This document shows positions 5,821 through 60,326 of a DNA stretch of 64,000 nucleotides, piece by piece (position 1 is the first letter of the stretch; each line of letters opens with the position of its first letter). Below the pieces are notes generated by a model. It searched no databases, was not told where the DNA came from, and saw only the letters and a list, made by a program, of their open reading frames with translations. The DNA comes from an uncultured Fodinibius sp. (lineage in GTDB: Bacteria > Bacteroidota > Rhodothermia > Balneolales > Balneolaceae), in contig CAJXOG010000001.1 of the NCBI GenBank assembly GCA_913057775.1, positions 186,001 to 250,000 of the forward strand, given 5' to 3'. The translations under genes were made by a program, and so were the position numbers.

Positions 5821-8208
5821 TCATTCTATTTTAATTTCCTTTGCTGCCTGTTCTAAGTTTTCATTCGTTGCGGTAATAGTTACCGATCCCGATTGACCAT
5901 CAGCTCGAAGCAATATTGTTGCAATACCGGCTTCGGCACTGATGGGATTCTGCCCTATCAGATTTGCATTGCCATCAATTTCAAAACGGATTTCATTTTC
6001 AGCATCGGTTACCACGGTTCCATTTTTATCCACCACGGAGGCATAGATAAATACTACATCCTTTTGTCCGGCCTCGAGTGGCTTATTGCTGAGATCTACA
6101 TCCAACTGAATAGCAGAAGGATCACCGGGGGTAGTTTGACTATGCTCGGCAACCTCTTCCCCATCGATATAACCGACCGCACGAAGCGTACCCGGCTCAA
6201 ATTCGTCAATTTTAAAAGTAAAAGGCGGATGGATCAGATGACTGGAAACACGTCCGCTATCGGGCGATTTCCGTCCGAGTGATTGCCCGTTTAAAAACAG
6301 CTCCACTTTTTCAGTGTTGCTGTAAACTTTGGCCGTGGTGTAATTTTCATCGGACCAAAAATTTGCAGTGTAAACCATCGGTTTACCAAAATCAGCGCCC
6401 TTTTCTGTATTGGGTCCGGCCTGACTCCGATAGAAGTAATAGGTGAATTTAGGAATACGGAATATATCGCGAATGCCCGAAGCTTCCAGGTTATCGGCAT
6501 AGCCGCGGTTGTAGTCAAACATCACCCAGTTGGCATCCCCAAAAGAATTCCCTTTGAGATTACTATTATGGGCTTCTTGAAAATTCAAGGCCTGCTGTGC
6601 CAACCGCTTTTGTCCGTCGCCGCGTAGTTGACGAGAATTACGAGCTTGCTCGGTCAAATCTTCAAATTCATCTTGGTTAAATCCGGCGTTGTGGGCATAG
6701 TATTCCCAGTCGCCGTATTCTGCAATGAAATAAGGTTTGTCTGTTTTGTAGTTATTCCAGTATTCCGGTGGTTCGGCATGCTGACGTGCGGGAATAAACA
6801 GATCATAGGCGTAATCCATCCACCCGGAAGAATAAGTATTATCGAATGGCAACTCATTATGAACAATCGCATGGGCACTATCCATAAACGATTTAGACAT
6901 ATTTGACTCGTTAAGTGAGGCCTCCCAAAGCACAATACTGGGATGATTGCGGTCGCGTCGAATCATATATCGAATATCGCGGTACGCCAGCTGCTGGAAC
7001 TCTTCATCTCCAAAAAACTGCCAGCCGGGAATGGCGTTCATAAACAACAACCCAAGCTCATCGGCGGCATCCAGAAAAGCAGATGACGGCGGATAGTGAG
7101 CCGTTCGGATAAAGTTGAATCCTGCCTGTTTTATTTTATAAGCATCGCGATACTGGGCGTTATCCGACAGTGCATAGCCAATATACGGATATGATTGATG
7201 GCGATTGGTACCACGCAAATGAATAACTTCGCCATTTAATACAAACTGATTATCCTTATTGAAATGGAATGTGCGTATGCCAATCTTCTCCCGTTTAGAA
7301 TCAACCACATCTCCATCCTTCTCCAGCGCAACAGTAACGGAATACAAATAGGGATTATCCGGTGACCATAAGTTGGGATTAGAAACCGTAAATTCTTGCT
7401 CAATCTTTTTAAACTTCCCTGCCGAAATTTTTTCGGCGGATGCCTGAGCTTCTCCAATAACTTTGCCCTGTTCATCACGCAGTACCGTTTTGATCACTGC
7501 TGACTGCGTCTCATCTCCCGTATTCAGCAGATCAGTCTGTACATGAACCGTGGCGGACTCATCAGCAACTTCCGAACTTCGGACCAACAATCCTCCCCCG
7601 GCTATCCGATCAGCGGCAATGGGATCAGAAATATGAAGCTTGTCATCAATTAACAGATAGGCATTACGATAGAGGCCACTAAAATAGTTGAAATCGAGAT
7701 TTTCTATTGGCTTTCCGGGCGGAATTGTAGGATTGTCCTCGTTATTAAGCCTCATCAACACCACATTTTCCTGACCGAGCTGCACGTGATCGGTAATATC
7801 CAACACAAAAGGCAAATATCCCCCTTTATGCGTTGTCAGCTTCTCGCCATTCAAGTAAATATCAGCCTCGTGCATTGCCGCGCCAAATTTTACCGCAATC
7901 CGCTTATCATTGTTTTCGGATGGAATCTCAAAAAACTTGCGATAAAAAGCAGTGCCCTGCCACTGTTGATCTTCAATTACTAACGGCTCAATATACGCAG
8001 TATGCGGCAGTGAAATCGCTTCCCATTCTACCTCACTCTCTTTCTCAAAGTAATCAGCCACCACTGTGGTGTCAATGCCGCGTGCAAACTGCCAATCGTT
8101 GTTAAAATTGATTGTGGTATGATCCATATATTTATTTGAGGAACTTGATGGCGTGCATCCCCAAACCAAAGCAATACAAATAAAGACTAAGGAAATATGT
8201 TTTCTCAT
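5821..8208 (-). CDS. GH2 beta-galactosidase lipoprotein
   Basis: Exo-glycosidase expected to release galactose from galacto-oligosaccharides made by the neighbouring GH53 enzymes. The 795 residues start with a lipoprotein signal whose Cys18 lies in LVWGCTP, so it is membrane-anchored outside the cytoplasm. The domains follow the GH2 order: sugar-binding sandwich (about 35-190), immunoglobulin-like domain (200-310), TIM barrel (315-600) and a C-terminal Ig-like region. The acid/base is Glu434 in ASLNESN and the nucleophile is Glu497 in FIAEYGDW. The exact glycosidic preference (galactosidase against other GH2 activities) is inferred from the GH53 and gal gene context. The gene sits 24 bp after the second GH53 gene. 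Confidence 0.9.
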   Translation of the reverse strand: MRKHISLVFICIALVWGCTPSSSSNKYMDHTTINFNNDWQFARGIDTTVVADYFEKESEVEWEAISLPHTAYIEPLVIEDQQWQGTAFYRKFFEIPSENNDKRIAVKFGAAMHEADIYLNGEKLTTHKGGYLPFVLDITDHVQLGQENVVLMRLNNEDNPTIPPGKPIENLDFNYFSGLYRNAYLLIDDKLHISDPIAADRIAGGGLLVRSSEVADESATVHVQTDLLNTGDETQSAVIKTVLRDEQGKVIGEAQASAEKISAGKFKKIEQEFTVSNPNLWSPDNPYLYSVTVALEKDGDVVDSKREKIGIRTFHFNKDNQFVLNGEVIHLRGTNRHQSYPYIGYALSDNAQYRDAYKIKQAGFNFIRTAHYPPSSAFLDAADELGLLFMNAIPGWQFFGDEEFQQLAYRDIRYMIRRDRNHPSIVLWEASLNESNMSKSFMDSAHAIVHNELPFDNTYSSGWMDYAYDLFIPARQHAEPPEYWNNYKTDKPYFIAEYGDWEYYAHNAGFNQDEFEDLTEQARNSRQLRGDGQKRLAQQALNFQEAHNSNLKGNSFGDANWVMFDYNRGYADNLEASGIRDIFRIPKFTYYFYRSQAGPNTEKGADFGKPMVYTANFWSDENYTTAKVYSNTEKVELFLNGQSLGRKSPDSGRVSSHLIHPPFTFKIDEFEPGTLRAVGYIDGEEVAEHSQTTPGDPSAIQLDVDLSNKPLEAGQKDVVFIYASVVDKNGTVVTDAENEIRFEIDGNANLIGQNPISAEAGIATILLRADGQSGSVTITATNENLEQAAKEIKIE

Positions 8209-44737: not shown

Positions 44738-46120
44738 TTATTTTTCAAGCACCAAATAACTATGAGCATCGAGCGTTACTCCTTCACCGTTCACTGTAAT
44801 ATTTTCTCCGCCAAATACATCGGTATAATCAGCAGTACCATCAAGGTTCGGGAACGAAATATTCTGCTCGCTATCTTCGAAATTAAGGATCACAAAAACT
44901 TCATAGTCTCCTTTTACTCGTTTATAAGCATATGTTTGTCCCGCTGATTCGGTAGGTACAGCAACAAATTCACCGCCATACTGACCATTCCAGAGTGCTT
45001 CATTGCTATCTTTCAGCTCAAAAAGCGTCCGATAGAAATCCTCATACTCATAATCCCCCCATTCAATGGGATCTTTTTCAAAAAACTCCAAACGCTTATC
45101 GAGACCATCTTCCTGTCCACTGTAAACCAACGGCATACCATCAATAGTAGCAGCCATAACAGCAAAGTTTTCGAAATTATCACCGAATAGTTCCTCATCT
45201 GTTCCATTCCAAGAATTTTCATCATGATTGGAAGTAAAATAAAGTCGGTAGGCATGGGCCGGGAAACGCTCCTCTTCTTGGGCCATATACTCCGTAATAA
45301 CACCAACAGAGGTATCGCCCTGGGCAATCTCAGTTGATAGATGAAAGTATTCCCAAGTGTATGTTGCATCAAACCAAGGGTGCATATCGGGTGTATTCCA
45401 CTCGGCCAGCCAGAAGAAATCTTCTTTTGAGTCATTGACTTCCGGAATAGCTTTTTTCCAGAAATCCAGCGGAATATCATGTCCTGCGTGATCTACCCGA
45501 TAGCCGTCGATATTGGCCTCTTCTATCCAGAACTTCATTCTGTCGATCATTTTATCCCAGAGCTCCTTGTTTTCGTAATTAAGCTGGGCAATATCGGTCC
45601 AATCGGCCTCATAGGTAATCGCACCAGTAGAATCTTTCATATAATACTCGGGATGCTCGTCTACCCATTCATGATCCCACGCGGTATGATTTGGAACCCA
45701 ATCTAAAAAGAGTTTCATATCATGCGCGTGAGTCGCCTCAACCAGATCCTTAAAGTCCTGCATAGTCCCAAAATTGGGATTCACCGCTTTGTAGTCCTGA
45801 ATAGAATAGTAGCTTCCGAGCTCCCCTTTTCGCTTTTCTTTGCCGATGGGATGAATAGGCATTAGCCAGAGGATATCAACGCCCATTTCCTTTAGACGCG
45901 GAATATGCTCTTCAAACGCTTTGAATGTGCCCTCTTCGGTATATTGACGGATATTAACCTCATACATGTTGGCGCTTTTCGACCATTCGGGGTGTTCAAT
46001 ATGATTTCGAGCCTGAACATCCTCTTCTATCGATTCAGTGCATCCCAACGTTAGTAACGATACGGAAAGCAATAAAAAAACTGATAATATCCTGATATAA
46101 AATGGTGAACGATTATTCAT
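44738..46120 (-). CDS. GH13 alpha-amylase-family lipoprotein
   Basis: The 460-residue GH13 enzyme is anchored by a lipid at Cys27 (LLTLGCTES). It has a compact barrel without an N-terminal binding module. The catalytic triad is Asp210 (GYRVDHAGHD), Glu240 (FFWLAEWN) and Asp300 (FTSNHDENSWN); a C-terminal beta domain ends the protein. With the MFS carrier downstream (44 bp) and maltose phosphorylase upstream (30 bp) it probably trims oligosaccharides on the periplasmic side. Product specificity cannot be read from sequence. Confidence 0.92.
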   Translation of the reverse strand: MNNRSPFYIRILSVFLLLSVSLLTLGCTESIEEDVQARNHIEHPEWSKSANMYEVNIRQYTEEGTFKAFEEHIPRLKEMGVDILWLMPIHPIGKEKRKGELGSYYSIQDYKAVNPNFGTMQDFKDLVEATHAHDMKLFLDWVPNHTAWDHEWVDEHPEYYMKDSTGAITYEADWTDIAQLNYENKELWDKMIDRMKFWIEEANIDGYRVDHAGHDIPLDFWKKAIPEVNDSKEDFFWLAEWNTPDMHPWFDATYTWEYFHLSTEIAQGDTSVGVITEYMAQEEERFPAHAYRLYFTSNHDENSWNGTDEELFGDNFENFAVMAATIDGMPLVYSGQEDGLDKRLEFFEKDPIEWGDYEYEDFYRTLFELKDSNEALWNGQYGGEFVAVPTESAGQTYAYKRVKGDYEVFVILNFEDSEQNISFPNLDGTADYTDVFGGENITVNGEGVTLDAHSYLVLEK

Positions 46121-46150
46121 TGCGGTGTGATTTTAGTTGATCTTAAAATA

Positions 46151-48472
46151 TTATTTACTCAATACAGGTGTTGATATTACAATTTCTTTATCTTGAGATA
46201 TCTCGTATTTATCTCCATAAACATAACATGTTGATCCACTGCCCTTTTCACAGGTTATAATAACTTTTTCCGATTCAACACGAACATTGAGTCGATTACC
46301 CTTGTGTAGAATCTTAAACGAATAGGCCTTCCACTCCTCAGGCAGTGATGGTGAAAAATGGAGCTGTCCTTCTTTGGCACGTTTTCCGGCAAACCCCTCC
46401 ACTATCGACATCCAAGTACCCGCCATACTCGTGATATGCAACCCCTGGTGTACCTCCTTGTTGTAATCGTCCAGATCGAGGCGTGCGGTACGCAAATACA
46501 GCTGATAGGCCTTTTCACCATAACCAAGCTTTGAGGCAATTATAGCGTGAATACAGGGCGAAAGCGATGATTCATGCACCGTTCGGGGCTCATAGAAATC
46601 AAAATTGCGACGAATGGTATCTTCATCAAAGTGATCCTCAAAAAAGTACAGTCCTTGTACCACATCACCTTGTTTAATAAAACACGAACGCAAAATTCGA
46701 TCCCAAGACCAATGCTGGTTAATTGGGCGCTCGCTCTTGTCAAGCTCGCTGGCCGTTCGCTGGACTTTATCAAGGTAGTTATCCTGTTGCAGGAAAATTC
46801 CGAGATCCTCATCTTCTCCGAGATAAACCCGATCCAGAATATCTTTCCAGCGTTCGGTTTCGGCACCTTTGTAAGAGGTTTTTTGTCGGATTTCTTCAAA
46901 CCGTTCCGGAGATTCATCGCGCACTTTTGCAATGGCTTCTATCGTGTAGCGCATACACCAGCAGGCGATGTACGAGGTGTACCAGTTATTATTGATATTG
47001 TTTTCATACTCATTAGGTCCGGTAACGCCCAGCATAACGTACTGCTGGCGCTTTTCGGAGAAGTTAAACCGCTGGCTCCAAAATCTTGAAATGGCAATTA
47101 ATACCTCGAGTCCGGCTTCTTTGAGGTACGAGTCGTCGCCGGTATGACGGATATAGTTGTAAATAGCATAAGCGATAGCGCCATTACGGTGGACTTCCTC
47201 AAATGTAATTTCCCATTCGTTATGGCACTCCTCTCCGTTCATCGTTACCATCGGATACAACGCTGCCCCATCGGTAAAACCGAGTTTTTCAGCGTTTTCA
47301 ATCGCTTTTGGCAAATGACGATAGCGGTACCATAACAGTTGTCGAGCCACCTCATTGGGAGCTGTATTCAGATAAAAAGGCAAACAGTATGCTTCAGTAT
47401 CCCAATACGTACATCCGCCATATTTTTCGCCCGTAAATCCTTTAGGACCAATGTTCAGGCGTTCATCTTCACCGGTATAAGTTTGGTACAGCTGGAAAAT
47501 ATTGAACCGGATCCCCTGCTGGGCATCCTTGTCACCATCGATATGCACATCGCTACCTTTCCAAATGTCGTCCCAGCGATCGGTATGTTCCTTCTGTAAC
47601 TGTTGATAACCGACTTTTGCTGTATCACCCACTGCTTGCTTAGCATGCACATGTAAGCGCTTACGATCATGATTCAAAGAAGAAGCAATAACTGCATATT
47701 TGTGGAGTTGAACTTCGTCATTCTCTTCGACTGGAATTTCATACGATTGGTCAACATACATCGAAGAAACAGAAGTCGTTGTATTAATATCCAGGGACTC
47801 ACCATTTTTTTGAATAGCATTTTTCATCGCTGCCGACACATGAAAATCAAGTTTTTTCGTTTGTGTTGTTACCACTCCGCCATTTTCAAAAGAACCCTGA
47901 GTTCCCTCATCCCAAAATATCTCATCATAGTTGGCATCCTCATTGTACACTTCTCCGTTGATATAGGGCGTTAGCGTAATAGTACCCGAAAAGTTCAGAG
48001 CTTTAATACAGTATTCTATAGCTCCTATCTCAGTGCGTTCCATGCTCACAAATCGACATGCTTCCACCGCAACTTTATTTCCGTTTTGCAGTTCAGCAAC
48101 AAAGCTGCGTTGCAACAAGCCATGTTTCATATCCAAGGTACGGGTAAAATCGGTGACCGTACATTCAGCAAGATCTAATTGCTCACCGTTGATGTAAACA
48201 TCAATACCGATCCAATTGACAGAATTGAGAACTTTTGCGAAATACTCGGGATAACCGTTCTTCCACCACCCTACTTTTGTGGGATCAGGATAATAAATTC
48301 CCCCGATATAGCTGCCCTGCAGCGAATCGCCACTGTAATGCTCTTCAAAGTTGGCCCGCTGCCCCATATGTCCATTACCAATACTGAAAATACTTTCTGA
48401 TGATCGCTGGCGCTCCGGATCAAACCCTTCTTCAATAATTTTCCATTCGTCAGTTTCCAGATACTTATCCAT
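46151..48472 (-). CDS. GH65 maltose phosphorylase
   Basis: The 773-residue cytoplasmic inverting phosphorylase converts maltose and phosphate to glucose and beta-glucose-1-phosphate. GH65 landmarks are an N-terminal super-sandwich (about 1-270), a linker and the (alpha/alpha)6 barrel. The barrel contains KYGGCTYWDTEAYCLPFYL (350-368) and the catalytic acid segment EECHNEWEITFEE (414-426; Glu419 or Glu421), plus a phosphate-loop region near HESSLSPCIHA. The partner beta-phosphoglucomutase lies 25 bp upstream. GH65 also includes trehalose and kojibiose phosphorylases; maltose is favoured by the starch context. An exact operator-like core lies inside the gene at 47651-47666. Confidence 0.9.
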   Translation of the reverse strand: MDKYLETDEWKIIEEGFDPERQRSSESIFSIGNGHMGQRANFEEHYSGDSLQGSYIGGIYYPDPTKVGWWKNGYPEYFAKVLNSVNWIGIDVYINGEQLDLAECTVTDFTRTLDMKHGLLQRSFVAELQNGNKVAVEACRFVSMERTEIGAIEYCIKALNFSGTITLTPYINGEVYNEDANYDEIFWDEGTQGSFENGGVVTTQTKKLDFHVSAAMKNAIQKNGESLDINTTTSVSSMYVDQSYEIPVEENDEVQLHKYAVIASSLNHDRKRLHVHAKQAVGDTAKVGYQQLQKEHTDRWDDIWKGSDVHIDGDKDAQQGIRFNIFQLYQTYTGEDERLNIGPKGFTGEKYGGCTYWDTEAYCLPFYLNTAPNEVARQLLWYRYRHLPKAIENAEKLGFTDGAALYPMVTMNGEECHNEWEITFEEVHRNGAIAYAIYNYIRHTGDDSYLKEAGLEVLIAISRFWSQRFNFSEKRQQYVMLGVTGPNEYENNINNNWYTSYIACWCMRYTIEAIAKVRDESPERFEEIRQKTSYKGAETERWKDILDRVYLGEDEDLGIFLQQDNYLDKVQRTASELDKSERPINQHWSWDRILRSCFIKQGDVVQGLYFFEDHFDEDTIRRNFDFYEPRTVHESSLSPCIHAIIASKLGYGEKAYQLYLRTARLDLDDYNKEVHQGLHITSMAGTWMSIVEGFAGKRAKEGQLHFSPSLPEEWKAYSFKILHKGNRLNVRVESEKVIITCEKGSGSTCYVYGDKYEISQDKEIVISTPVLSK
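47651..47666. promoter_or_regulatory. Operator-like palindrome inside the GH65 gene
   Basis: ATGTAAGCGCTTACGA contains the perfect 12-bp palindrome GTAAGCGCTTAC, the idealised centre of the two susC operators and the lacI upstream site. It encodes part of HDRKRLHVH in the GH65 enzyme, so it may be chance or an internal roadblock or looping site. Other AAGCGCTT cores in the window (in pyrE and glnN) lack the flanking bases. Confidence 0.4.
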
Positions 48473-48497
48473 AAATCGTAATCTTGTTACTTATCCG

Positions 48498-49160
48498 TTA
48501 ATTCTCATTAAGTTTTTTAAATAGCTTTTCAGGGGTCAGGCCAATAAAGTTAGTAATAACGAGATCAGCATCACCCAAATACTCTTCGGAACCAACACCC
48601 ACGCTAATAAATCCTCCATTATTAGCCGCTTTAACGCCCGAAGCGGCATCTTCAAAGACAATTGTTTTTGAGGGATCTGCATGCAATGCTTTTGCCCCTT
48701 TCAAAAACACTTCCGGATCAGGCTTCGTGTTATTTACTTTATTTCCGTCGATAATTATACCGAAAGTATCGTTCAGCTGGAGATAATCAATTATATAAGG
48801 GGCATTTTTACTTGATGATCCGATTCCCAGCGGGATATTCATTTCTTGCAATGATTCTAAAAACTCCGGCACACCCTCCAGGATATCATCGGGCGTTAAT
48901 TCGGCAATAGCATCTTGGTACCAGCCATTCTTTTTATCCATCAGCCGTTGAATCTCCTCCTCGGGCAATTGACGGTCATCAAGAGCTAAAATCTTTTCAA
49001 TAGATTTTCGCCGACTCACCCCTTTGAGCTGCTCATTAAATTCTTTACCGAAGGATATTCCCAGGGATTCAGCAAGTCGCTGCCAGGCTTTAAAATGAGC
49101 GTCAGATGTTTCAACGATAACGCCATCCAAATCAAAAATACATGCGTCAGGGCTGATCAT
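48498..49160 (-). CDS. pgmB: Beta-phosphoglucomutase
   Basis: The 220-residue HAD-superfamily enzyme interconverts beta-glucose-1-phosphate and glucose-6-phosphate. The nucleophile motif FDLDGVIVETSD supplies Asp10 and Asp12. The phosphate-binding SSSKNAP, Lys in NTKPDPEVFL and the acidic EDAASGVKAA complete the HAD motifs, and the helical cap carries the family's QLKGVSRRKSIEKIL. It sits between lacI (55 bp) and GH65 (25 bp), the normal partnership that feeds maltose phosphorylase product into glycolysis. Confidence 0.95.
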   Translation of the reverse strand: MISPDACIFDLDGVIVETSDAHFKAWQRLAESLGISFGKEFNEQLKGVSRRKSIEKILALDDRQLPEEEIQRLMDKKNGWYQDAIAELTPDDILEGVPEFLESLQEMNIPLGIGSSSKNAPYIIDYLQLNDTFGIIIDGNKVNNTKPDPEVFLKGAKALHADPSKTIVFEDAASGVKAANNGGFISVGVGSEEYLGDADLVITNFIGLTPEKLFKKLNEN

Positions 49161-49215
49161 AAATCACAAAAAATAATTTAACATTCTCTTTCTTAAACAG
49201 CAGATAAAAACCTTA

Positions 49216-50235
49216 TCAATTTTCTTTTTTTGCTTCTGTTTCAGTAGAAGAGCGCAGAATAAGCTCAGGTGCAAAAACCTTATGCTCTGGCTCTGACTCC
49301 CGATTTTTCATTCTATTCATTAGTTTTTTGGTAGCCAGCGTGCCCATATCGTACATAGGTTGACGGATAGTCGACAAGCCAATAAAATTCGAAATCGTTA
49401 TATCATCATAGCCTATTATAGGTATCTCCATCCCTTTTTCATCCATTGCTTTCATTGCACCAACAGCTTGGATATCAGAAGTGCAAAAACAGGCATGGGG
49501 CGGATTGGGCAGCTCCAACAATTTAATCATCGCCTCGTAGCCGTTCTGTTCCGAAAAGCCATCGCGATACATGGAATCTCCCGTTACAATAAGATCTTCA
49601 TCAACTGAGACACCCGCCTCGTTAAGTGCCTTTTTATAACCTTCTATGCGCTGCCTTCCGGGTTTTGAGGTCTTCATGGCACTTATCATAGCAATGCGGG
49701 TCATCCCGTTATCCAGAAAATAGTGCATTGCTTTTTCAATGCCCTTTTCGTTATCGACGGAAACAGAATCCATTCCGGGATAGGATTCATCAATAAGTGT
49801 AATTGGCATATCATAATTTTGCAGCTGCTCAAGTTCGGTATCCCGCAAATGGGTCGAAATAAAGAGATAACCATCGGCCCACTGGCGCTTGATAATATTT
49901 TCCACTTGGGAAAACATATTATCATTCCCATTGCTTTGCACATTAAAAATATTCAGATCATAATTGTACTTGGATATTTCATCCTGGATACCTGCCAACA
50001 CCTCCATAAAAAAGTAATTGGACAAAACCGGCACCACCACCATAATAATATTCTTTTTCTTTCGCGCCAGTCCCTGTGCGTAAGCCTGTGGATAATATCC
50101 AAGCTCGTCAGCTACTTTTAATACTTTCTCTCTCGTTTTATCCGCAATACCAGCACTATCATTAACAACGCGTGAAACAGTGGCTATACTTACACCCGCT
50201 TTTTTTGCAATGTCATATATTGTACTTCCAGCCAA
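49216..50235 (-). CDS. LacI-family transcriptional regulator of the starch/maltose locus
   Basis: The 339-residue regulator has an N-terminal helix-turn-helix (about 4-25: STIYDIAKKAGVSIATVSRV), a hinge and a sugar-sensing domain. Translation starts at TTG (50235), with AAGAGGAAT as ribosome site about 8 nt upstream; TTG is needed because STIYDIAKKAG must lie at the extreme N-terminus. A palindromic operator sits 46-65 bp upstream, implying autoregulation. The related operators before susC suggest it controls both arms of the locus. Maltose or a maltose derivative is the expected effector, by context only. Confidence 0.92.
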   Translation of the reverse strand: MAGSTIYDIAKKAGVSIATVSRVVNDSAGIADKTREKVLKVADELGYYPQAYAQGLARKKKNIIMVVVPVLSNYFFMEVLAGIQDEISKYNYDLNIFNVQSNGNDNMFSQVENIIKRQWADGYLFISTHLRDTELEQLQNYDMPITLIDESYPGMDSVSVDNEKGIEKAMHYFLDNGMTRIAMISAMKTSKPGRQRIEGYKKALNEAGVSVDEDLIVTGDSMYRDGFSEQNGYEAMIKLLELPNPPHACFCTSDIQAVGAMKAMDEKGMEIPIIGYDDITISNFIGLSTIRQPMYDMGTLATKKLMNRMKNRESEPEHKVFAPELILRSSTETEAKKEN

Positions 50236-50402: not shown

Positions 50403-51674
50403 TTAAAAATTCTCAAACACATGCACGAGCGCGCGAGCTTTAATTTGGGTTTCTTCCCACTCTTTTTCTGGATCTGAATCACCGGTAATTGCGCCCCCTA
50501 CTGCGTAATACAAATAATTATTTTTTATGATCGCTGTTCTAATTATCACATTAAAATCAAAATCTCCGGAAGGAGTTATATATCCTATCGCACCGGAGTA
50601 TATACCCCTCTTATAGTCCTCAAGTTCTTCAATTGAATTCATTGCACTTATTTTAGGAGCTCCTGTCATCGAGCCCATCGGGAAGCAGGCCCGCAGAATA
50701 TTGACAGGATCTTTTTCTTTTGCTTTGGCAGCAACAGTAGATACCATCTGATGCACCGTACCAAATGACTGAATATCAAAAAGAGCTGGCACTTTCACGG
50801 TACCCTTTTCAGCAATTTTATTTAAATCATTCCGAACCAAATCAACAATCATCAGGTTTTCAGCTTGCTCTTTCTCGGATGAAATCAACTCTTTCTTTAA
50901 AAACTCATCTTCATCGGTGGTTACCCCCCGTTTTGATGTTCCTTTAATCGGCTGCGAATAAACGGTTTTTTTCTCCTTTCGAAGAAATCGCTCCGGTGAC
51001 TGACAGCAAATCGAAATGTCAGCAAGTTGTAAAAAGCTTCCAAACGGTACGGGACCTATTTCCCGCATCTTTTGATACAACTGAAGCGCAGAACCTTTAA
51101 AAGGTGCTTTCATTTGATGCGAAAGAGTAATTTCATAAAAATCTCCCTCCGTAATCAAAAACTGCGACTTTCTAATTTTTTGAGTATAGGATTCTCGACT
51201 TGTCTGTGATTGCATGCTTTCAAGCTCACATTCTTCTTTAGCTGAAATTCCCTGTTCAATTTCAGCCTCTTTGGGAATTTCGCCACGCATTACCTCTACC
51301 TTTTCAGATTGATGATCGTATCGCAACAAAAATCCGGGTACCATAAAATACATATCCGGAGCTCCCACCGGGTCTGCATTAGATGAGCTTAACCGTTCGA
51401 TATGATTCTTTAAATCATATCCCAAATATCCAAATAACCAGTCATCCACCCGGTTTCTAAATGCCTGCAATGCTTGCCAAGGATTTTGGCTGTACTGCTT
51501 TTTTTTAGTACCGCTGATCTCAAAAATCTGACCGTCATACGCTTTAATTATTCTCTCCGGCTGCGCTGCCAAATATGAAATCTGGGATGAAGGGTGATCT
51601 TTAGACTGTGACTCCAACAAAATTACATCACCCTGAGAGGCAAAATAATTTATCAATGAAAGCAGATCAGCCAT
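50403..51674 (-). CDS. pabB: Aminodeoxychorismate synthase component I
   Basis: The 423-residue chorismate-utilising enzyme makes 4-amino-4-deoxychorismate for folate. The key motif YSQPIKGTSKRG carries the PIKGT lysine that distinguishes PabB from anthranilate synthase (PIAGT). Other conserved parts are GDFYEITLSHQ, CFPMGSMTGAPKI and YAVGGAITGDSDPEKEW. It is 5 bp after pabC in one operon. The glutamine amidotransferase subunit PabA is not in the window. Length is typical for a stand-alone PabB lacking the long N-terminal tail. Confidence 0.93.
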   Translation of the reverse strand: MADLLSLINYFASQGDVILLESQSKDHPSSQISYLAAQPERIIKAYDGQIFEISGTKKKQYSQNPWQALQAFRNRVDDWLFGYLGYDLKNHIERLSSSNADPVGAPDMYFMVPGFLLRYDHQSEKVEVMRGEIPKEAEIEQGISAKEECELESMQSQTSRESYTQKIRKSQFLITEGDFYEITLSHQMKAPFKGSALQLYQKMREIGPVPFGSFLQLADISICCQSPERFLRKEKKTVYSQPIKGTSKRGVTTDEDEFLKKELISSEKEQAENLMIVDLVRNDLNKIAEKGTVKVPALFDIQSFGTVHQMVSTVAAKAKEKDPVNILRACFPMGSMTGAPKISAMNSIEELEDYKRGIYSGAIGYITPSGDFDFNVIIRTAIIKNNYLYYAVGGAITGDSDPEKEWEETQIKARALVHVFENF

Positions 51675-51679
51675 CCCAT

Positions 51680-52558
51680 CTACGATTTTAAAAATTTTGT
51701 GTTAGCTTCACGAAAAGCAGTATACCGATTTTGTAATTCTTCTATGGCAGAATGATCAATATCAAACTTTTCATCCTCGATTGTTTCCACAGCTAAGACC
51801 TCTCGGACTGAGTTGCATATCCAAACGGCATCGGCGTCCAAAACATGATCAAGGGAATATTTCCCCTCTCGACACTTCCATCTATTACTTTCTTCTATGA
51901 TATCCAAAATAATTTTTCGAGTAATACCGGGAATAAGATCACATTCTTCATCGGGCGTAAATATTACATCACCCTTAATCCAAAAAATATTAGCAATGGT
52001 TGTCTCTGATATAAAACCATCGATCGTTTGCATCAGGGCATCATCCCCTCCCTTGTCCGCGGCTTGCTGAGCAGCCAAGATGTAGTTAATTCCGTTTGTA
52101 AACTTTGTTGATGACGGCATCGATTGGGAAGGGATGCGCCTTTGATCAACAATAGTTAATTTTGGGGGAGAAAAATCATCGGGACAAGCTGAAGCAGTTA
52201 TAGAGTAATGTGTGCTATTATCATCTTTTGGATGATAGCCCCGCTGCCCATCTCGCCACACTTGTAAACGGATGATAGCATCTTTATGTATCAGCTGTTG
52301 CTTTTCCAGGAGCTTCCATAGCTGATCTCTGAGTACTTCAATCTCTAAATCGGGTTCTGCTGCCATCCCAAGTATATGCATTCCGGAATGCAAGCGAGCA
52401 ATATGGTCTTCAAGGAGAAAAGTTTTTCCATGATAGGTTCGCAAAGTCTCAAAAACGCCATCCCCGTACATTAGTCCGCGCGAAACCACAGGCACAACCG
52501 GCTGGTCCGCCGGAGTGATCCTGCCATCAAAAATAAGCCAGTTATTGTTGGTTTCCAT
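51680..52558 (-). CDS. pabC: Aminodeoxychorismate lyase / class IV aminotransferase
   Basis: The 292-residue PLP enzyme of fold type IV likely releases pyruvate from aminodeoxychorismate to give p-aminobenzoate. The N-terminal SRGLMYGDGVFETLRTYHGK and LEDHIARLHSGM, the PLP lysine in SSTKFTNGINYILA, and the C-terminal ISETTIANIFWIKG with LIPGITRKIIL fit the family. D-amino-acid or branched-chain transaminases share the fold; adjacency to pabB decides the call. Its start overlaps the preceding thioredoxin-fold gene by 17 bp. Confidence 0.85.
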   Translation of the reverse strand: METNNNWLIFDGRITPADQPVVPVVSRGLMYGDGVFETLRTYHGKTFLLEDHIARLHSGMHILGMAAEPDLEIEVLRDQLWKLLEKQQLIHKDAIIRLQVWRDGQRGYHPKDDNSTHYSITASACPDDFSPPKLTIVDQRRIPSQSMPSSTKFTNGINYILAAQQAADKGGDDALMQTIDGFISETTIANIFWIKGDVIFTPDEECDLIPGITRKIILDIIEESNRWKCREGKYSLDHVLDADAVWICNSVREVLAVETIEDEKFDIDHSAIEELQNRYTAFREANTKFLKS

Positions 52559-53090
52559 TGTTTATAAGTACCCGTAAGCTGTCGTATTGACGGTCATCCG
52601 AATATCCTAAGAACACATGCTTTAGGTCAAGCTGTTGATCATACACAAATTGAACAGGTAATCCGGGCATATTGAATTCTGAAAACTGTCTCGATCCTGC
52701 CACAAAATGAAAGGGAAACTGATGCTTCTGGATATACTGCTCCACCTCTTGCTTTTGAAGTCCAACAGCGGCCGCCAAAACCTGGACGTCATCTGGATGT
52801 TGCTGCTTAATTTGGGCCAGTTCGGTATGCGATTTCAGCGAAGCATTCGACCAGTTCGACCATAAATCCAAGACAATATACATTCCTTTGTAATCGGATA
52901 CTTTTACGCTATCATCTGACTGAATATTAGTCCACCAGGTTGCCTGAAGGGAATCTTGGGCAAACATGCGCTGCTTAAAATCAGATTTTTCGGCGGTGCG
53001 GTTGCTAACAATAAAATAGGCAATCAGGGAGGCGGCCACTATGGCAACGATCAGCAAAAAGGTATTAAAATATTTGGGATCTATACGCAT
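52542..53090 (-). CDS. Membrane-anchored thioredoxin-fold (TlpA/redoxin-like) protein lacking all cysteines
   Basis: The 182-residue protein has one N-terminal transmembrane helix (about 9-28) and a thioredoxin-like domain on the far side of the membrane. The strand VLDLWSNWSNASLKSHTEL corresponds to the TlpA-type WATWCxxCRxxxPxL, but both active-site cysteines are serine (Ser81 and Ser84) and the whole protein has no cysteine. The cis-proline loop is kept (MPGLPVQFVYD). It therefore cannot do dithiol exchange and may instead bind or chaperone a partner. It lies 2 bp after a GH13 gene and overlaps pabC by 17 bp. Function unknown. Confidence 0.8.
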   Translation of the reverse strand: MRIDPKYFNTFLLIVAIVAASLIAYFIVSNRTAEKSDFKQRMFAQDSLQATWWTNIQSDDSVKVSDYKGMYIVLDLWSNWSNASLKSHTELAQIKQQHPDDVQVLAAAVGLQKQEVEQYIQKHQFPFHFVAGSRQFSEFNMPGLPVQFVYDQQLDLKHVFLGYSDDRQYDSLRVLINNGNQQ

Positions 53091-53092
53091 AA

Positions 53093-54868
53093 TTAGTTCT
53101 CTTCAGGGGATAATACAGCACCGGAAATGGGCGGGAGCGTAATTACAGCTTCACTATTTGCTATCTCTGTCCGATTACCCGTAACAATATTTTCAAGATG
53201 CTTCCCTTCTTCAACTTCAAAATGATCTAGTGGTATTCTGATTTTCTGCGTCCGACCTGAGCGGTTCACGGCCACCAAACAAAACATATGCTTGTTTAAA
53301 AAACGGGCAAACACAAATACATTCCGATCATTCTCAGTAAGCAATTCCTGGAATTTACCTTTTCGTAATGCTAAATGTTTATTCCTTATCCCACCTAATT
53401 TCTTATACCAGTTAAACAGTTCCTCATCAAATGAATTTTCATCAACAGGACGATCTTTGTCTAACGGATGGGTAGCCTCTGGCTCATAATCGAATTCTGG
53501 CCACACCATTGGTTTCCGATCATCGGGATCGTCAGCCCCCCACATGCCCGCCTCCGTACCGTAAAAAATCATAGGAGCACCCACATACGTATATTGAAAT
53601 AGCGAAATGAGCCTTTGCAGACGACGTTCTTTGGTCGTGGGTTTACGCACGTCAAAACCTTCCTCGGGCTTAGTTTCGGTATCAAATTCACGGTCGGGAT
53701 TCACAATCATCGATGCCAGACGCGGCGTATCGTGACTATCCATCAGGTTCTGTTGCACCAATTCGGCTCCATCCGGCAATCCTTCCCGAATGGATCGCAA
53801 TCTTTTCATAAAATCAGACGGTGTCAACAGTTGATCAATCATATAATCCTGCACCGCTTCGGTAAATGGATAATTCATAGCAGCGGTAAAGAGCTCGCTA
53901 TTAACCCACTCACGCCCTTTATCCGTCCAAATTTCTCCCACGGTATAAGCATCGGAATTCATATTTCGAACCACAGAATTCCATTCTTTCCAAAATTTTT
54001 GTCCGACCTCTTCGGGGACATCCAGCCGCCAGCCATCAATACCGTCCGACGGATCACCATCTCCATCGGGATCCATCCAACGTCGCGTAATTGCAAAAAT
54101 GTGCTCCCGAACAGGTTTTACCAGAGTGCCATGAACTTCCTTTAATTCAGGTAGGCTTTTAACCCCCCACCAGCCGTCGTAATCAAATTTCTGACCGTTG
54201 CCATCAGCAAATGATTTGATGGAATACCAGTTTTTATATTTGGATTTCGACTGGTTCTCTTTCACATCTTGAAAGGCCCAAAAATCAGTTCCTGTGTGGT
54301 TAAAAACCCCATCAATGATAATCTTCATGTCTCTTTTATGGACCTCTTCGATCAGCTTCAAAAATAACTCATCTGCTGATGTCCACTGCCATGTATCCGG
54401 ATCTTCGGGATCTTCCTGCTTCATAATTTCCACATCACCTTCGGGATCGGGACCAAAGAAGCGATCAATATGGTGATAGTAACTGGTATCGTATTTATGT
54501 AGCGATACTGCATCAAAAACAGGATTCAGATAGATTCCACCGATACCCAACTCTTGCAAATAATCCAGCTTATCGATAACACCCTGCAGATCACCTCCGT
54601 AACGGCGCTTAAAAACGCCATCGCGAAAAGTATCGCCCAATGATTGTTCCCAGTCAGCCCGTTTATACCAGTCACCTGTCCAAGGTGATATTTGCCACCC
54701 CTTGGGACCGCCTACTCTTTCGCGTGTAGGATCATTGGAAGGATCTCCATTCCGAAAACGCTCGGGAAAAATTTGATACCAGATTACATGCTTAGACCAA
54801 TCCGGTGCATGATAAGATGTGTTAACAGGATTTCCATTGTTTGATGTGTGATCGAGAGGGTGTTCCAT
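53093..54868 (-). CDS. Cytoplasmic GH13 neopullulanase/alpha-glucosidase-like enzyme
   Basis: The 591-residue GH13 enzyme has no signal peptide and so acts in the cytoplasm. The barrel begins with VIWYQIFPERFRNGDPSNDP and carries Asp283 (GWRLDVPEEV), Glu312 (YTVGEIWT) and Asp380 (LMDSHDTPRL). The GGDLQGVIDKLDYLQELGI region is typical of the cyclomaltodextrinase/neopullulanase branch, but the CBM34 domain is missing, so it could be an alpha-glucosidase-like hydrolase. It follows pfkA by 24 bp, pairing malto-oligosaccharide hydrolysis with glycolysis. Confidence 0.9.
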   Translation of the reverse strand: MEHPLDHTSNNGNPVNTSYHAPDWSKHVIWYQIFPERFRNGDPSNDPTRERVGGPKGWQISPWTGDWYKRADWEQSLGDTFRDGVFKRRYGGDLQGVIDKLDYLQELGIGGIYLNPVFDAVSLHKYDTSYYHHIDRFFGPDPEGDVEIMKQEDPEDPDTWQWTSADELFLKLIEEVHKRDMKIIIDGVFNHTGTDFWAFQDVKENQSKSKYKNWYSIKSFADGNGQKFDYDGWWGVKSLPELKEVHGTLVKPVREHIFAITRRWMDPDGDGDPSDGIDGWRLDVPEEVGQKFWKEWNSVVRNMNSDAYTVGEIWTDKGREWVNSELFTAAMNYPFTEAVQDYMIDQLLTPSDFMKRLRSIREGLPDGAELVQQNLMDSHDTPRLASMIVNPDREFDTETKPEEGFDVRKPTTKERRLQRLISLFQYTYVGAPMIFYGTEAGMWGADDPDDRKPMVWPEFDYEPEATHPLDKDRPVDENSFDEELFNWYKKLGGIRNKHLALRKGKFQELLTENDRNVFVFARFLNKHMFCLVAVNRSGRTQKIRIPLDHFEVEEGKHLENIVTGNRTEIANSEAVITLPPISGAVLSPEEN

Positions 54869-58770: not shown

Positions 58771-59637
58771 TTAATTTTTATTACTCAGCTCAAAGAGTTT
58801 TTGTTTTTCTTTATCAGTGAGACCATCATATCCTTTTTGAGAAATCTTCTCCAAGATAGCATCAAGCTCAGTCTGATCCGATTCATCAACAACCTCCACA
58901 TCAGAAACGGAATACATATTTTTATTTTTAGGGCTGGATTTCTTCTTCTGATAGGTCCCCTTTAAGCGATACCAAAACTGTTCAACAGGTAACACCCAGC
59001 GGCTTAAATCATTGCCCTGGCGGTGATATTTCATCAACAAATAGCCAATGCCGGCTCCCGCAAGGTGTACAATTCTCGCTGTTCCATCTGATGATCCCAA
59101 CAGCAATGCATCAATGGCAATAAGTCCAGCTACCAGATAACGTGCCTGGATGGGTGGAAGTAAAATCAGCATAATAGGCATGGTGGGATAAAGCATCGCA
59201 AATGCAACCATGATGCCATAAACAGCACCCGATGCTCCAATTACGGGATTAAATCCCAGCACTGGAGCCGCAACAATATTGAACAACGCTCCACCAATAC
59301 CGGCGCCAAAAAAGAGGACCGAAAATGTCCGAGGTCCCATCGACTCTTCAACCGAACGTCCCAGCCACCAGAGCCAGAGCATATTAAAAAGCAGGTGAAA
59401 TGCGCCACCATGTAAAAACATATAGGTAACGGCTCTCCATGGTTGAAAAAGCGCTGTCTGCCACTCAGGATAAAACGCAAATGCATCAATAAATAAATTG
59501 CTATAGGCAGGACTGAAGATACTCAGCAGCGTTTGTATGATAAAAACGGCTACGTTGATCGTAATAATCACACGAATTGCCACCGGCAATCCCCAATAAC
59601 CGCGCTTTACTGAGTTACCGAAAGAGTCGTTATACAT
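58771..59637 (-). CDS. Rhomboid-family intramembrane serine protease with C-terminal extension
   Basis: The 288-residue membrane protein has a six-helix rhomboid core (about 15-215). The catalytic serine is in NPVIGASGAVYGI (GxSG) and the histidine in IVHLAGAGIGYLL; the HGGAFHLLFNMLWLWWLG segment is the conserved helix 2 with His and Asn. A hydrophilic cytoplasmic tail (about 225-288) contains a conserved small motif region (ELDAILEKISQKGYDGLTDKEK). It lies 60 bp after a second, shorter rhomboid. Substrates are unknown. Confidence 0.92.
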   Translation of the reverse strand: MYNDSFGNSVKRGYWGLPVAIRVIITINVAVFIIQTLLSIFSPAYSNLFIDAFAFYPEWQTALFQPWRAVTYMFLHGGAFHLLFNMLWLWWLGRSVEESMGPRTFSVLFFGAGIGGALFNIVAAPVLGFNPVIGASGAVYGIMVAFAMLYPTMPIMLILLPPIQARYLVAGLIAIDALLLGSSDGTARIVHLAGAGIGYLLMKYHRQGNDLSRWVLPVEQFWYRLKGTYQKKKSSPKNKNMYSVSDVEVVDESDQTELDAILEKISQKGYDGLTDKEKQKLFELSNKN

Positions 59638-59696
59638 ATTGGTAGTCCACCATTAATGCTGTTGCTGCATTGCGTAAAGTTAACAAAAATTTCCTG

Positions 59697-60326
59697 TTAG
59701 TAGTAAGATTCTTCACTTTTTAATCCCCAATATTTTATCAGGATAAAGCCTACAAGCATTCCTCCCAAGTGGGCAAAATGCGCTACCCCAGAGTTAGCCC
59801 TGGTTAAGCCGCTGATGAGTTCAATAGCTCCAAAAATAGCAACAAAATACTTGGCTTTTATGGGGATAGGTGGAAAAAGAAGCATTATTGGACGGTTGGG
59901 AAACATCATCCCGAAAGCCAGCAGAATACCATAAACGGCTCCCGAAGCACCCAATGTAGGAGCACCACCTCCGCCAATCAGCATGTGCAGTAAAGCAGCT
60001 CCAATACCGGTTAAAAAGTAGTAGATTACAAAACGATTAGTACCCCAGAAATTTTCAATGGCCTGCCCAAACATCCATAAAGCAAACAGGTTGAAAAAGA
60101 TATGTCCAAAGCCGGCATGCAGAAACATATAAGAGATCAGTTGCCAAACACCAAAACGTCCGGAATCGATAGGCCAAAGCGCTCCATAAGTAAATAAATA
60201 CTCTGAAACCACTGGTGTACTAAGAGCTACAAAAGCCAGTAAGTTTATAATCAGCAAGTGTTTTACTGCCGGAGGAAATATCGAAAGTTGCGTATTGGGA
60301 CTGTATTGCGGGGATTGATAATTCAA
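59697..60326 (-). CDS. Rhomboid-family intramembrane serine protease
   Basis: The 209-residue integral membrane protease has the catalytic pair in APTLGASGAVYGIL (Ser) and HFAHLGGMLVGFI (His), and the helix-2 motif HAGFGHIFFNLFALWMFG. It lacks the cytoplasmic tail of the adjacent paralog (58771-59637), which is 60 bp downstream. The tandem pair looks like a duplication followed by divergence. Bacteroidota-type genomes commonly carry this pair. It is the first gene of the ispG block. Confidence 0.92.
   Translation of the reverse strand: MNYQSPQYSPNTQLSIFPPAVKHLLIINLLAFVALSTPVVSEYLFTYGALWPIDSGRFGVWQLISYMFLHAGFGHIFFNLFALWMFGQAIENFWGTNRFVIYYFLTGIGAALLHMLIGGGGAPTLGASGAVYGILLAFGMMFPNRPIMLLFPPIPIKAKYFVAIFGAIELISGLTRANSGVAHFAHLGGMLVGFILIKYWGLKSEESYY

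Follow-up and report, generated by a model that had tools for sequence, protein, structure and literature searches.

What work is left for a thioredoxin-fold protein that has lost every cysteine, and why should its gene lie between a GH13 alpha-amylase-family gene and genes resembling pabC and pabB? Both questions are raised by one ORF of the window (the whole stretch of 64,000 nucleotides analysed here), whose TlpA/ResA-like product we designate TlpA-S (Table 1). The ORF starts with ATG and encodes 182 residues with zero Cys; Ser81 and Ser84, each encoded by TCG, sit within DLWSNWSNASL. The translation thus confirms a sequence-only reading of this DNA, which had reported serine in place of both active-site cysteines and a complete lack of Cys. 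That reading had also described the retention of Trp80, the helix start (residue 82) and the cis-Pro, which the orthologs and the structural model bear out, as well as a 2-bp gap to GH13 and an overlap with pabC, and both are indeed present (the GH13 gene ends at 53093; the pabC-like gene starts at 52558 and overlaps the TlpA-S stop by 17 nt). Because the domain is devoid of any cysteine, no thiol-disulfide chemistry is possible in TlpA-S.

Table 1. Coordinates of TlpA-S, its conserved elements and its neighbours in the window
Feature	Position	Strand	Basis
TlpA-S gene (cysteine-free TlpA/ResA-like protein, 182 aa)	52542..53090	(-)	ORF, model, orthologs in 107/128 order genomes
W80-S81-N-A-S84, replaces W-C-x-x-C	52839..52853	(-)	W80 66/66, S81 65/66, S84 58/66
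Pro145, cis-Pro position (MPGLPVQF)	52656..52658	(-)	66/66 orthologs
N-terminal tail, residues 1-11 (MRIDPKYFNTF)	53058..53090	(-)	conserved; low column entropy
TlpA-S transmembrane segment, ~residues 10-29	53004..53063	(-)	hydropathy; helix 5-44 in model
GH13 alpha-amylase-family gene, 2 bp upstream of TlpA-S	53093..54868	(-)	Alpha-amylase 3.6e-53
pabC-like gene (class IV aminotransferase fold, probable 4-amino-4-deoxychorismate lyase)	51680..52558	(-)	Aminotran_4 2e-51
pabB-like gene (chorismate-binding enzyme)	50403..51674	(-)	Chorismate_bind 5.7e-85

TlpA-S has a ResA-type thioredoxin fold

AlphaFold prediction and structure comparison indicate that TlpA-S consists of an N-terminal membrane segment followed by a thioredoxin fold of the ResA/TlpA type. 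The model, obtained from the ortholog alignment with a mean pLDDT of 86.5 and a pTM of 0.75, shows a long helix at residues 5-44, the hydrophobic portion of which spans approximately residues 10-29. Its best structural matches in Foldseek and VIA-align comparisons were ResA structures (Z 18.1, rmsd 2.3 Å, 134 residues), and the Cys-less ResA C74A/C77A structure 2h1g also matched at Z 18.1; structure prediction, proposed earlier as a check, therefore yielded a ResA-type fold. Likewise, the matches of a profile of 65 orthologs to structurally solved proteins of the ResA and Etrx types reached about 1e-12.

The window protein alone scored below the Pfam gathering cut-offs for AhpC-TSA (23.6 versus 26 bits), Redoxin (21.1 versus 26.6) and Thioredoxin_8 (23.6 versus 27), its best single-protein match being the sub-threshold one to AhpC-TSA (5.4e-05); Thioredoxin_8 was matched at E 0.01 or better by 46 of the 65 orthologs. 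It did not reach the NCBIfam ResA model NF002854 either (35.9 bits versus a cut-off of 170). The TPR domain that characterizes CnoX/YbbN is absent from this 182-aa protein, and the model ends after the thioredoxin domain.

TlpA-S is widely distributed in the order Balneolales

When 244 genomes of the class were searched with a profile, we counted TlpA-S orthologs in 107 of the 128 genomes of the order Balneolales, divergent members with insertions among them. The order is so named after its nearest named records, Aliifodinibius and Fodinibius, which the NCBI taxonomy assigns to Balneolales. These were picked manually from the search list by score and coverage of the N-terminus, and a possible 108th, found in G071 only as a fragment at a contig end, was excluded from the count. 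A first search had covered 97 relatives and found matches in 90; CxxC paralogs made up many of these matches, and 65 orthologs were taken from the search besides the window copy. From the 67 initial candidates, G046_L068 and G086_L086 were dropped as CxxC paralogs; G061_L049, which has a long C-terminus, was excluded from alignment A1 (65 rows) and retained in the counts on 66 orthologs. ORFs in the fetched loci were called with a simple longest-ORF script, which missed the target ORF in G069, G075 and G080, and were grouped by single-linkage BLAST.

In the same class but outside the order, we read 30 loci from 15 genomes, out of 46 listed matches, and all of them contained WCxxC. Phylum-wide, among 394 genomes, the best match outside the order (2.1e-17) spanned profile positions 38-168 only, and 14 high-scoring relatives from outside the order likewise showed WCxxC in every case. 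Plasmid records contained four distant matches only, at most 28% identical; two of these weak matches are annotated as TlpA-type disulfide reductases. Beyond the phylum, coverage was limited to one genome collection, in which a pattern scan returned four loci, of the Fodinibius type. Since the 44 relatives read outside the order (30 + 14; those whose loci were retrieved, not strictly the top 44) all possess CxxC, and plasmid matches are few and distant, the loss of the cysteines looks like a property of the order Balneolales.

The first active-site position is serine or threonine in every ortholog read

Of the 66 orthologs, including the window copy, 65 have Ser and one has Thr at position 81, and position 84 is Ser in 58, Gly in four, Ala in three and Thr in one, with Trp80, Pro145, Gly162, Phe8 and Ile23 invariant. 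A further 26 orthologs that we read for the motif had W-S-x-x-S in every case, so that the first active-site position is Ser in 91 and Thr in one of the 92 sequences read out of the 107 counted; the motif was not read in the other 15 (G097, G099, G101, G105, G106, G107, G112, G114, G116, G118, G119, G120, G121, G123 and G124). Intact CxxC in close orthologs, which would have spoken for simple local decay, was looked for in the 128 order genomes and was not found among these 92 orthologs. The redox-inactive, membrane-tethered role advanced in the sequence-only reading is supported, with Ser or Thr at the first position of all 92. The conservation of Ser-x-x-Ser itself, also put forward for checking, stood at the first position and failed at the second; we consequently rejected a strict Ser-x-x-Ser as the conserved unit. 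The groove is likewise not exactly retained, because position 84 differs from Ser in 8/66. Divergent orthologs of genus g5 (loci L144-L147 and L154-L156) show an insertion after the motif and FAARWS replacing FWATWS.

The serine codons are TCN nearly throughout, with AGY in one sequence at each position. Cys is absent from the whole protein in the window copy and in 38/66 orthologs; a single Cys confined to residues 1-29 occurs in 26 of the 65 A1 rows, and two rows have one Cys further on. After position 29, the alignment-based count on A1 gave two Cys in 9,690 residues; a second count, on unaligned ORFs cut at residue 30, gave seven in 9,539.

A conserved N-terminal tail precedes the membrane helix

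The tail in front of the helix follows the consensus M[RK][LI]DxKYFxxF, and its residues 1-11 have the lowest mean column entropy of the seven stretches compared (1.01 bits), followed by the cis-Pro loop (1.19), residues 75-91 (1.83), 12-28 (1.92) and 58-165 (2.23); the most variable are the linker (2.76) and the C-tail (2.95). When the 128 genomes were scanned with a degenerate DNA pattern for residues 1-8, 74 gave one match each, 71 of these matches being the start of TlpA-S, and the reversed control matched in two genomes. On these counts we rejected the idea that other proteins share the tail as an anchor. The three matches away from TlpA-S are G025:C138:5399, G031:C84:10851 and G040:C39:47933. 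This constant tail, which would be cytoplasmic should the domain face outward, gives the best indication of a specific contact.

The hydrophobic helix is present in all 66 orthologs, with a mean hydropathy in a 19-residue window of 2.74 for the window copy and 2.0-3.2 overall. Mean net charge is +1.09 before the helix (without the terminal amine) and +0.86 in the 15 residues after it, a weak difference, and the number of K/R alone points the opposite way, being higher after the helix (2.98) than before it (2.06). Proteins of the neighbouring PabC cluster contain 1.60% Cys. Low Cys content is nevertheless no proof of export, because other neighbours are also Cys-poor, namely the Rho- and MoxR-like cytoplasmic proteins (ca. 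0.20%), the GH13 cluster (0.26%) and the sugar transporters (0.14%). Taken with a probable exported ancestry (see below), the near-absence of Cys and the slight bias in net charge suggest that the domain may face outward.

TlpA-S is an ancient paralog under purifying selection

An 82-row tree placed the serine proteins in one clade (support 100/97), which was recovered (100/99) with both motif positions masked and fewer rows. In the first tree this clade lay next to a group (93/73) that comprised 14 of the 15 CxxC paralogs from Balneolales, with a joint node at 100/90 after midpoint rooting. Both trees used every second A1 row, the second one without two long-branch rows and the divergent rows; they rest on few columns, and some members have long branches. 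By eye, the 13 printed N-termini of the CxxC paralogs comprised ten lipoprotein-like, one secreted-like and two without a start. Because 10/13 begin like lipoproteins, the common ancestor of TlpA-S and these paralogs was probably exported.

Three close pairs of orthologs gave dN/dS of 0.065/0.749, 0.060/0.776 and 0.064/1.042 (range 0.06-0.09); wider pairs were saturated or not computable. TlpA-S is under purifying selection, and its single clade is restricted, within the searches described, to this order. It is a paralog of the TlpA/ResA thiol-disulfide oxidoreductases whose redox chemistry was lost long ago and has stayed lost.

TlpA-S is nearly always paired with pabC

Upstream neighbours of TlpA-S vary, and include GH13 as well as ispG-, small-heat-shock-, pfkA- and sugar-transporter-like genes (folC, rho, ispG, pfkA, MoxR, rpmE, small heat-shock and PIN are names given from reading the sequences, without a family search). 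GH13 ends within 450 nt upstream in 25/66 orthologs, as counted by a search that used one third of the sequences in the GH13 cluster, and is the preceding ORF, at any distance, in 29/66, which weakens it as a functional partner. Of the two neighbours with which the sequence-only reading had implied co-translation, pabC is coupled to TlpA-S nearly order-wide, whereas GH13 lies close to it in a minority of the orthologs. Elsewhere in the window, two tandem genes for rhomboid-like membrane proteins, read from the sequence, lie near an ispG-like gene (58771-60326(-)), and other genera also carry this rhomboid-like/ispG-like block upstream of TlpA-S. Also read from the sequence, a sugar cluster at 44738-50235(-) contains a GH13-like gene whose product has a lipoprotein-like N-terminus, a GH65-like phosphorylase gene, a beta-phosphoglucomutase-like gene and a gene for a LacI-type regulator with a TTG start.

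The best NCBIfam matches of the pabC-like protein are aminodeoxychorismate lyases, below their cut-offs; the pabB-like protein scores 326.4 bits on TIGR00553 pabB (cut-off 328.4) and 339.4 on trpE_most (cut-off 517.7). Because these cut-offs are missed, and because the pabB-like protein scores more on trpE, the names pabC and pabB are probable, not certain.

A same-strand pabC-like gene lies within 400 nt downstream of TlpA-S in 92 of the 100 genomes in which both were found (the ends of five split matches, in G015, G026, G054, G079 and G128, were set by hand, three of them approximately). The remaining eight comprise three partial matches to the next gene, three contig ends, one PIN-like ORF between the two genes, and G076, where they are truly apart and TlpA-S is beside GH13. 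The downstream ORF overlaps the end of TlpA-S by 1-17 nt in 49/66 orthologs and does not overlap it in nine, the script having found no long downstream ORF in the other eight. Genes further downstream alternate between pabB-like and folC-rho-like. A PIN-domain-like ORF, read from the sequence, is found next to or inside the TlpA-S/pabC pair in L051 (G022; 7341-7889(+)); several f1 genomes have such an ORF upstream of TlpA-S, and elsewhere it occurs with a small partner-like ORF.

Seven genomes contain TlpA-S without a good PabC match. Four of them (G061, G064, G069 and G080) have an ORF of the pabC cluster following it and in G125 the gene is at a contig end, which leaves G015 and G025 without intact pabC. 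In G025 (L143, 6354-6935(-)), TlpA-S directly precedes a folC-like gene and no pabC match is better than 4.7e-11; G015 (L154, 5542-6051(-)), a genome 98% complete that keeps DHPS, has a pabC remnant of 169 aa that lacks approximately residues 31-156. Conversely, PabC occurs without TlpA-S in four genomes, three at contig ends (including G071, with its TlpA-S fragment) and G074, of the same genus as G076, where pabC is present and a TlpA-S ortholog was not detected. TlpA-S is thus not an obligate subunit of PabC, because it is kept in two genomes without intact pabC and stands apart from it in a third; the solitary pabC of G074 further weakens that idea.

Neither gene was found in at most 17 order genomes. 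These are drafts of 51-92% completeness, and no empty site was readable in the eight flank contigs fetched (for one of these, G071, both genes are on another contig), so we drew nothing about co-function from joint loss. DHPS is present in all 83 near-complete genomes and in 121/128 overall, indicating that folate synthesis is general in the order. The PabC of the order finds a best match of 2.2e-23 in 30 class genomes outside it, and may be lineage-specific or acquired; because of this low match, the TlpA-S/pabC pairing has no clear outgroup.

A proposed binding role for a redox-dead fold

Because the serine motif is kept across the order and the place before pabC is nearly constant, a non-redox binding job is probable for TlpA-S. 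We favour, with moderate confidence, the explanation that it is a redox-dead, partner-binding protein of the envelope, a function that we infer from sequence comparisons and the model. The N-terminal helix would fix it to the inner membrane, and the thioredoxin domain would face the periplasm. In the relatives of TlpA-S, the parts of the fold that it keeps are those that bind peptides, and its retained groove (Trp80, the helix N-terminus and the cis-Pro loop) could hold a protein partner without thiol chemistry, so that TlpA-S may act as a non-catalytic assembly factor, adaptor or holdase. Its constant tail would contact something at the cytoplasmic face or within the membrane, and the overlap with pabC would probably set co-expression with the pABA/folate operon, without making TlpA-S an obligate PabC subunit. 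Several results sit uneasily with this envelope role. A protein that is wholly periplasmic would not be expected to be linked to pabC almost everywhere; the topology is deduced from a weak charge difference, with more K/R after the helix; and variation at position 84 makes the groove inexact.

The same data might describe an operon passenger that serves some unrelated task in the envelope, for which the place before pabC supplies expression only and the overlap is frozen gene order. This departs from the favoured explanation only in the weight given to pabC. Survival of TlpA-S after loss of intact pabC (G015, G025) and after separation (G076), and the varied upstream neighbours, agree with a passenger, which we regard as possible but unlikely: the pair is held in at least 92/100 genomes and, since the surrounding gene order is otherwise much rearranged, seems more than the usual passenger.

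Less likely still, TlpA-S could work directly with PabC, tying it (together with PabB or FolC) to the membrane, with the domain or the tail in the cytoplasm. Such a tether explains the gene pairing better than an envelope role does, given the frequency of the downstream pabC (seven of the eight exceptions fit or are uninformative), the common overlap of the frames, the constancy of the pair while genes further downstream switch between pabB-like and folC-rho-like, and a tail that is the best-conserved stretch compared. It does not explain the unpaired cases, that is, TlpA-S without intact pabC in G025 and G015, the separation in G076 and the pabC alone in G074; exported ancestry and avoidance of Cys also suggest the periplasm. 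A more elaborate version, which we consider improbable, makes TlpA-S the dedicated membrane partner in an order-wide, membrane-tethered pABA/folate assembly: it would dock through its tail, be produced at a constant ratio to PabC through overlapping translation, and bring PabC to the membrane. If true, membrane-tethered PabC would represent a localisation of folate synthesis that is not known from bacteria. Finally, simple decay of a redox enzyme into a functionless pseudo-enzyme, with which the loss of both catalytic cysteines and the sub-threshold Pfam scores would agree, is a most improbable origin and is refuted in practice by conservation, as judged from the single clade, the order-wide retention, the dN/dS of 0.06-0.09 and the invariance of Trp80, Pro145 and Gly162.

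Comparison with known thioredoxin-fold proteins

ResA and CcmG have a membrane anchor followed by a thioredoxin domain, as does TlpA-S, which also shares with ResA/CcmG/TlpA (ResA structures 1st9, 2h1g and 2h1b) the fold, the Trp before the motif, the helix start and the cis-Pro loop. Unlike them, it has no CxxC, shows a first-position serine order-wide, and has a conserved N-terminal tail and a location before pabC. The CxxC TlpA-like paralogs of Balneolales (e.g. G000:C5:164397-164903, L100) occur in the same order, often in the same genome, and differ in their CxxC, mostly within WETWCxPC, and in the lipoprotein-like N-terminus of most of those printed. They constitute a built-in control for TlpA-S.

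HupG/HyaE proteins belong to the hydrogenase operon, have no CxxC and have an assembly role; in contrast to TlpA-S, they come from another operon and have no membrane anchor. This hydrogenase accessory family has been listed as thioredoxin-fold (PMC2757866). CnoX/YbbN from E. coli, also a bacterial thioredoxin-fold protein, is described as having the motif SXXC and acting as a holdase (PMC8129009), but its holding TPR domain and reactive Cys are missing from TlpA-S, which has a membrane anchor instead. For plastid thioredoxin z, of the RNA polymerase complex, a redox-inactive variant is reported still to work, and the protein is seen as a structural component (PMC4036507); this is a plant plastid protein with native cysteines, and an analogy only. 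As these accounts of CnoX and thioredoxin z indicate, redox-inactive thioredoxin-fold proteins are an already known kind.

We did not find the TlpA-S family described in the open-licence literature searched, and what appears to be new is an order-wide family of cysteine-free, ResA-like proteins that has an anchor motif of its own and occupies a near-fixed place overlapping pabC. Name-based annotation risks calling these proteins TlpA-type disulfide reductases, a chemistry that their sequence rules out. In all, TlpA-S is a clear example from nature of a redox fold whose chemistry disappeared, apparently in a single event, and which was afterwards retained in more than 100 species; its near-fixed pairing with pabC provides a concrete first hypothesis for its partner.
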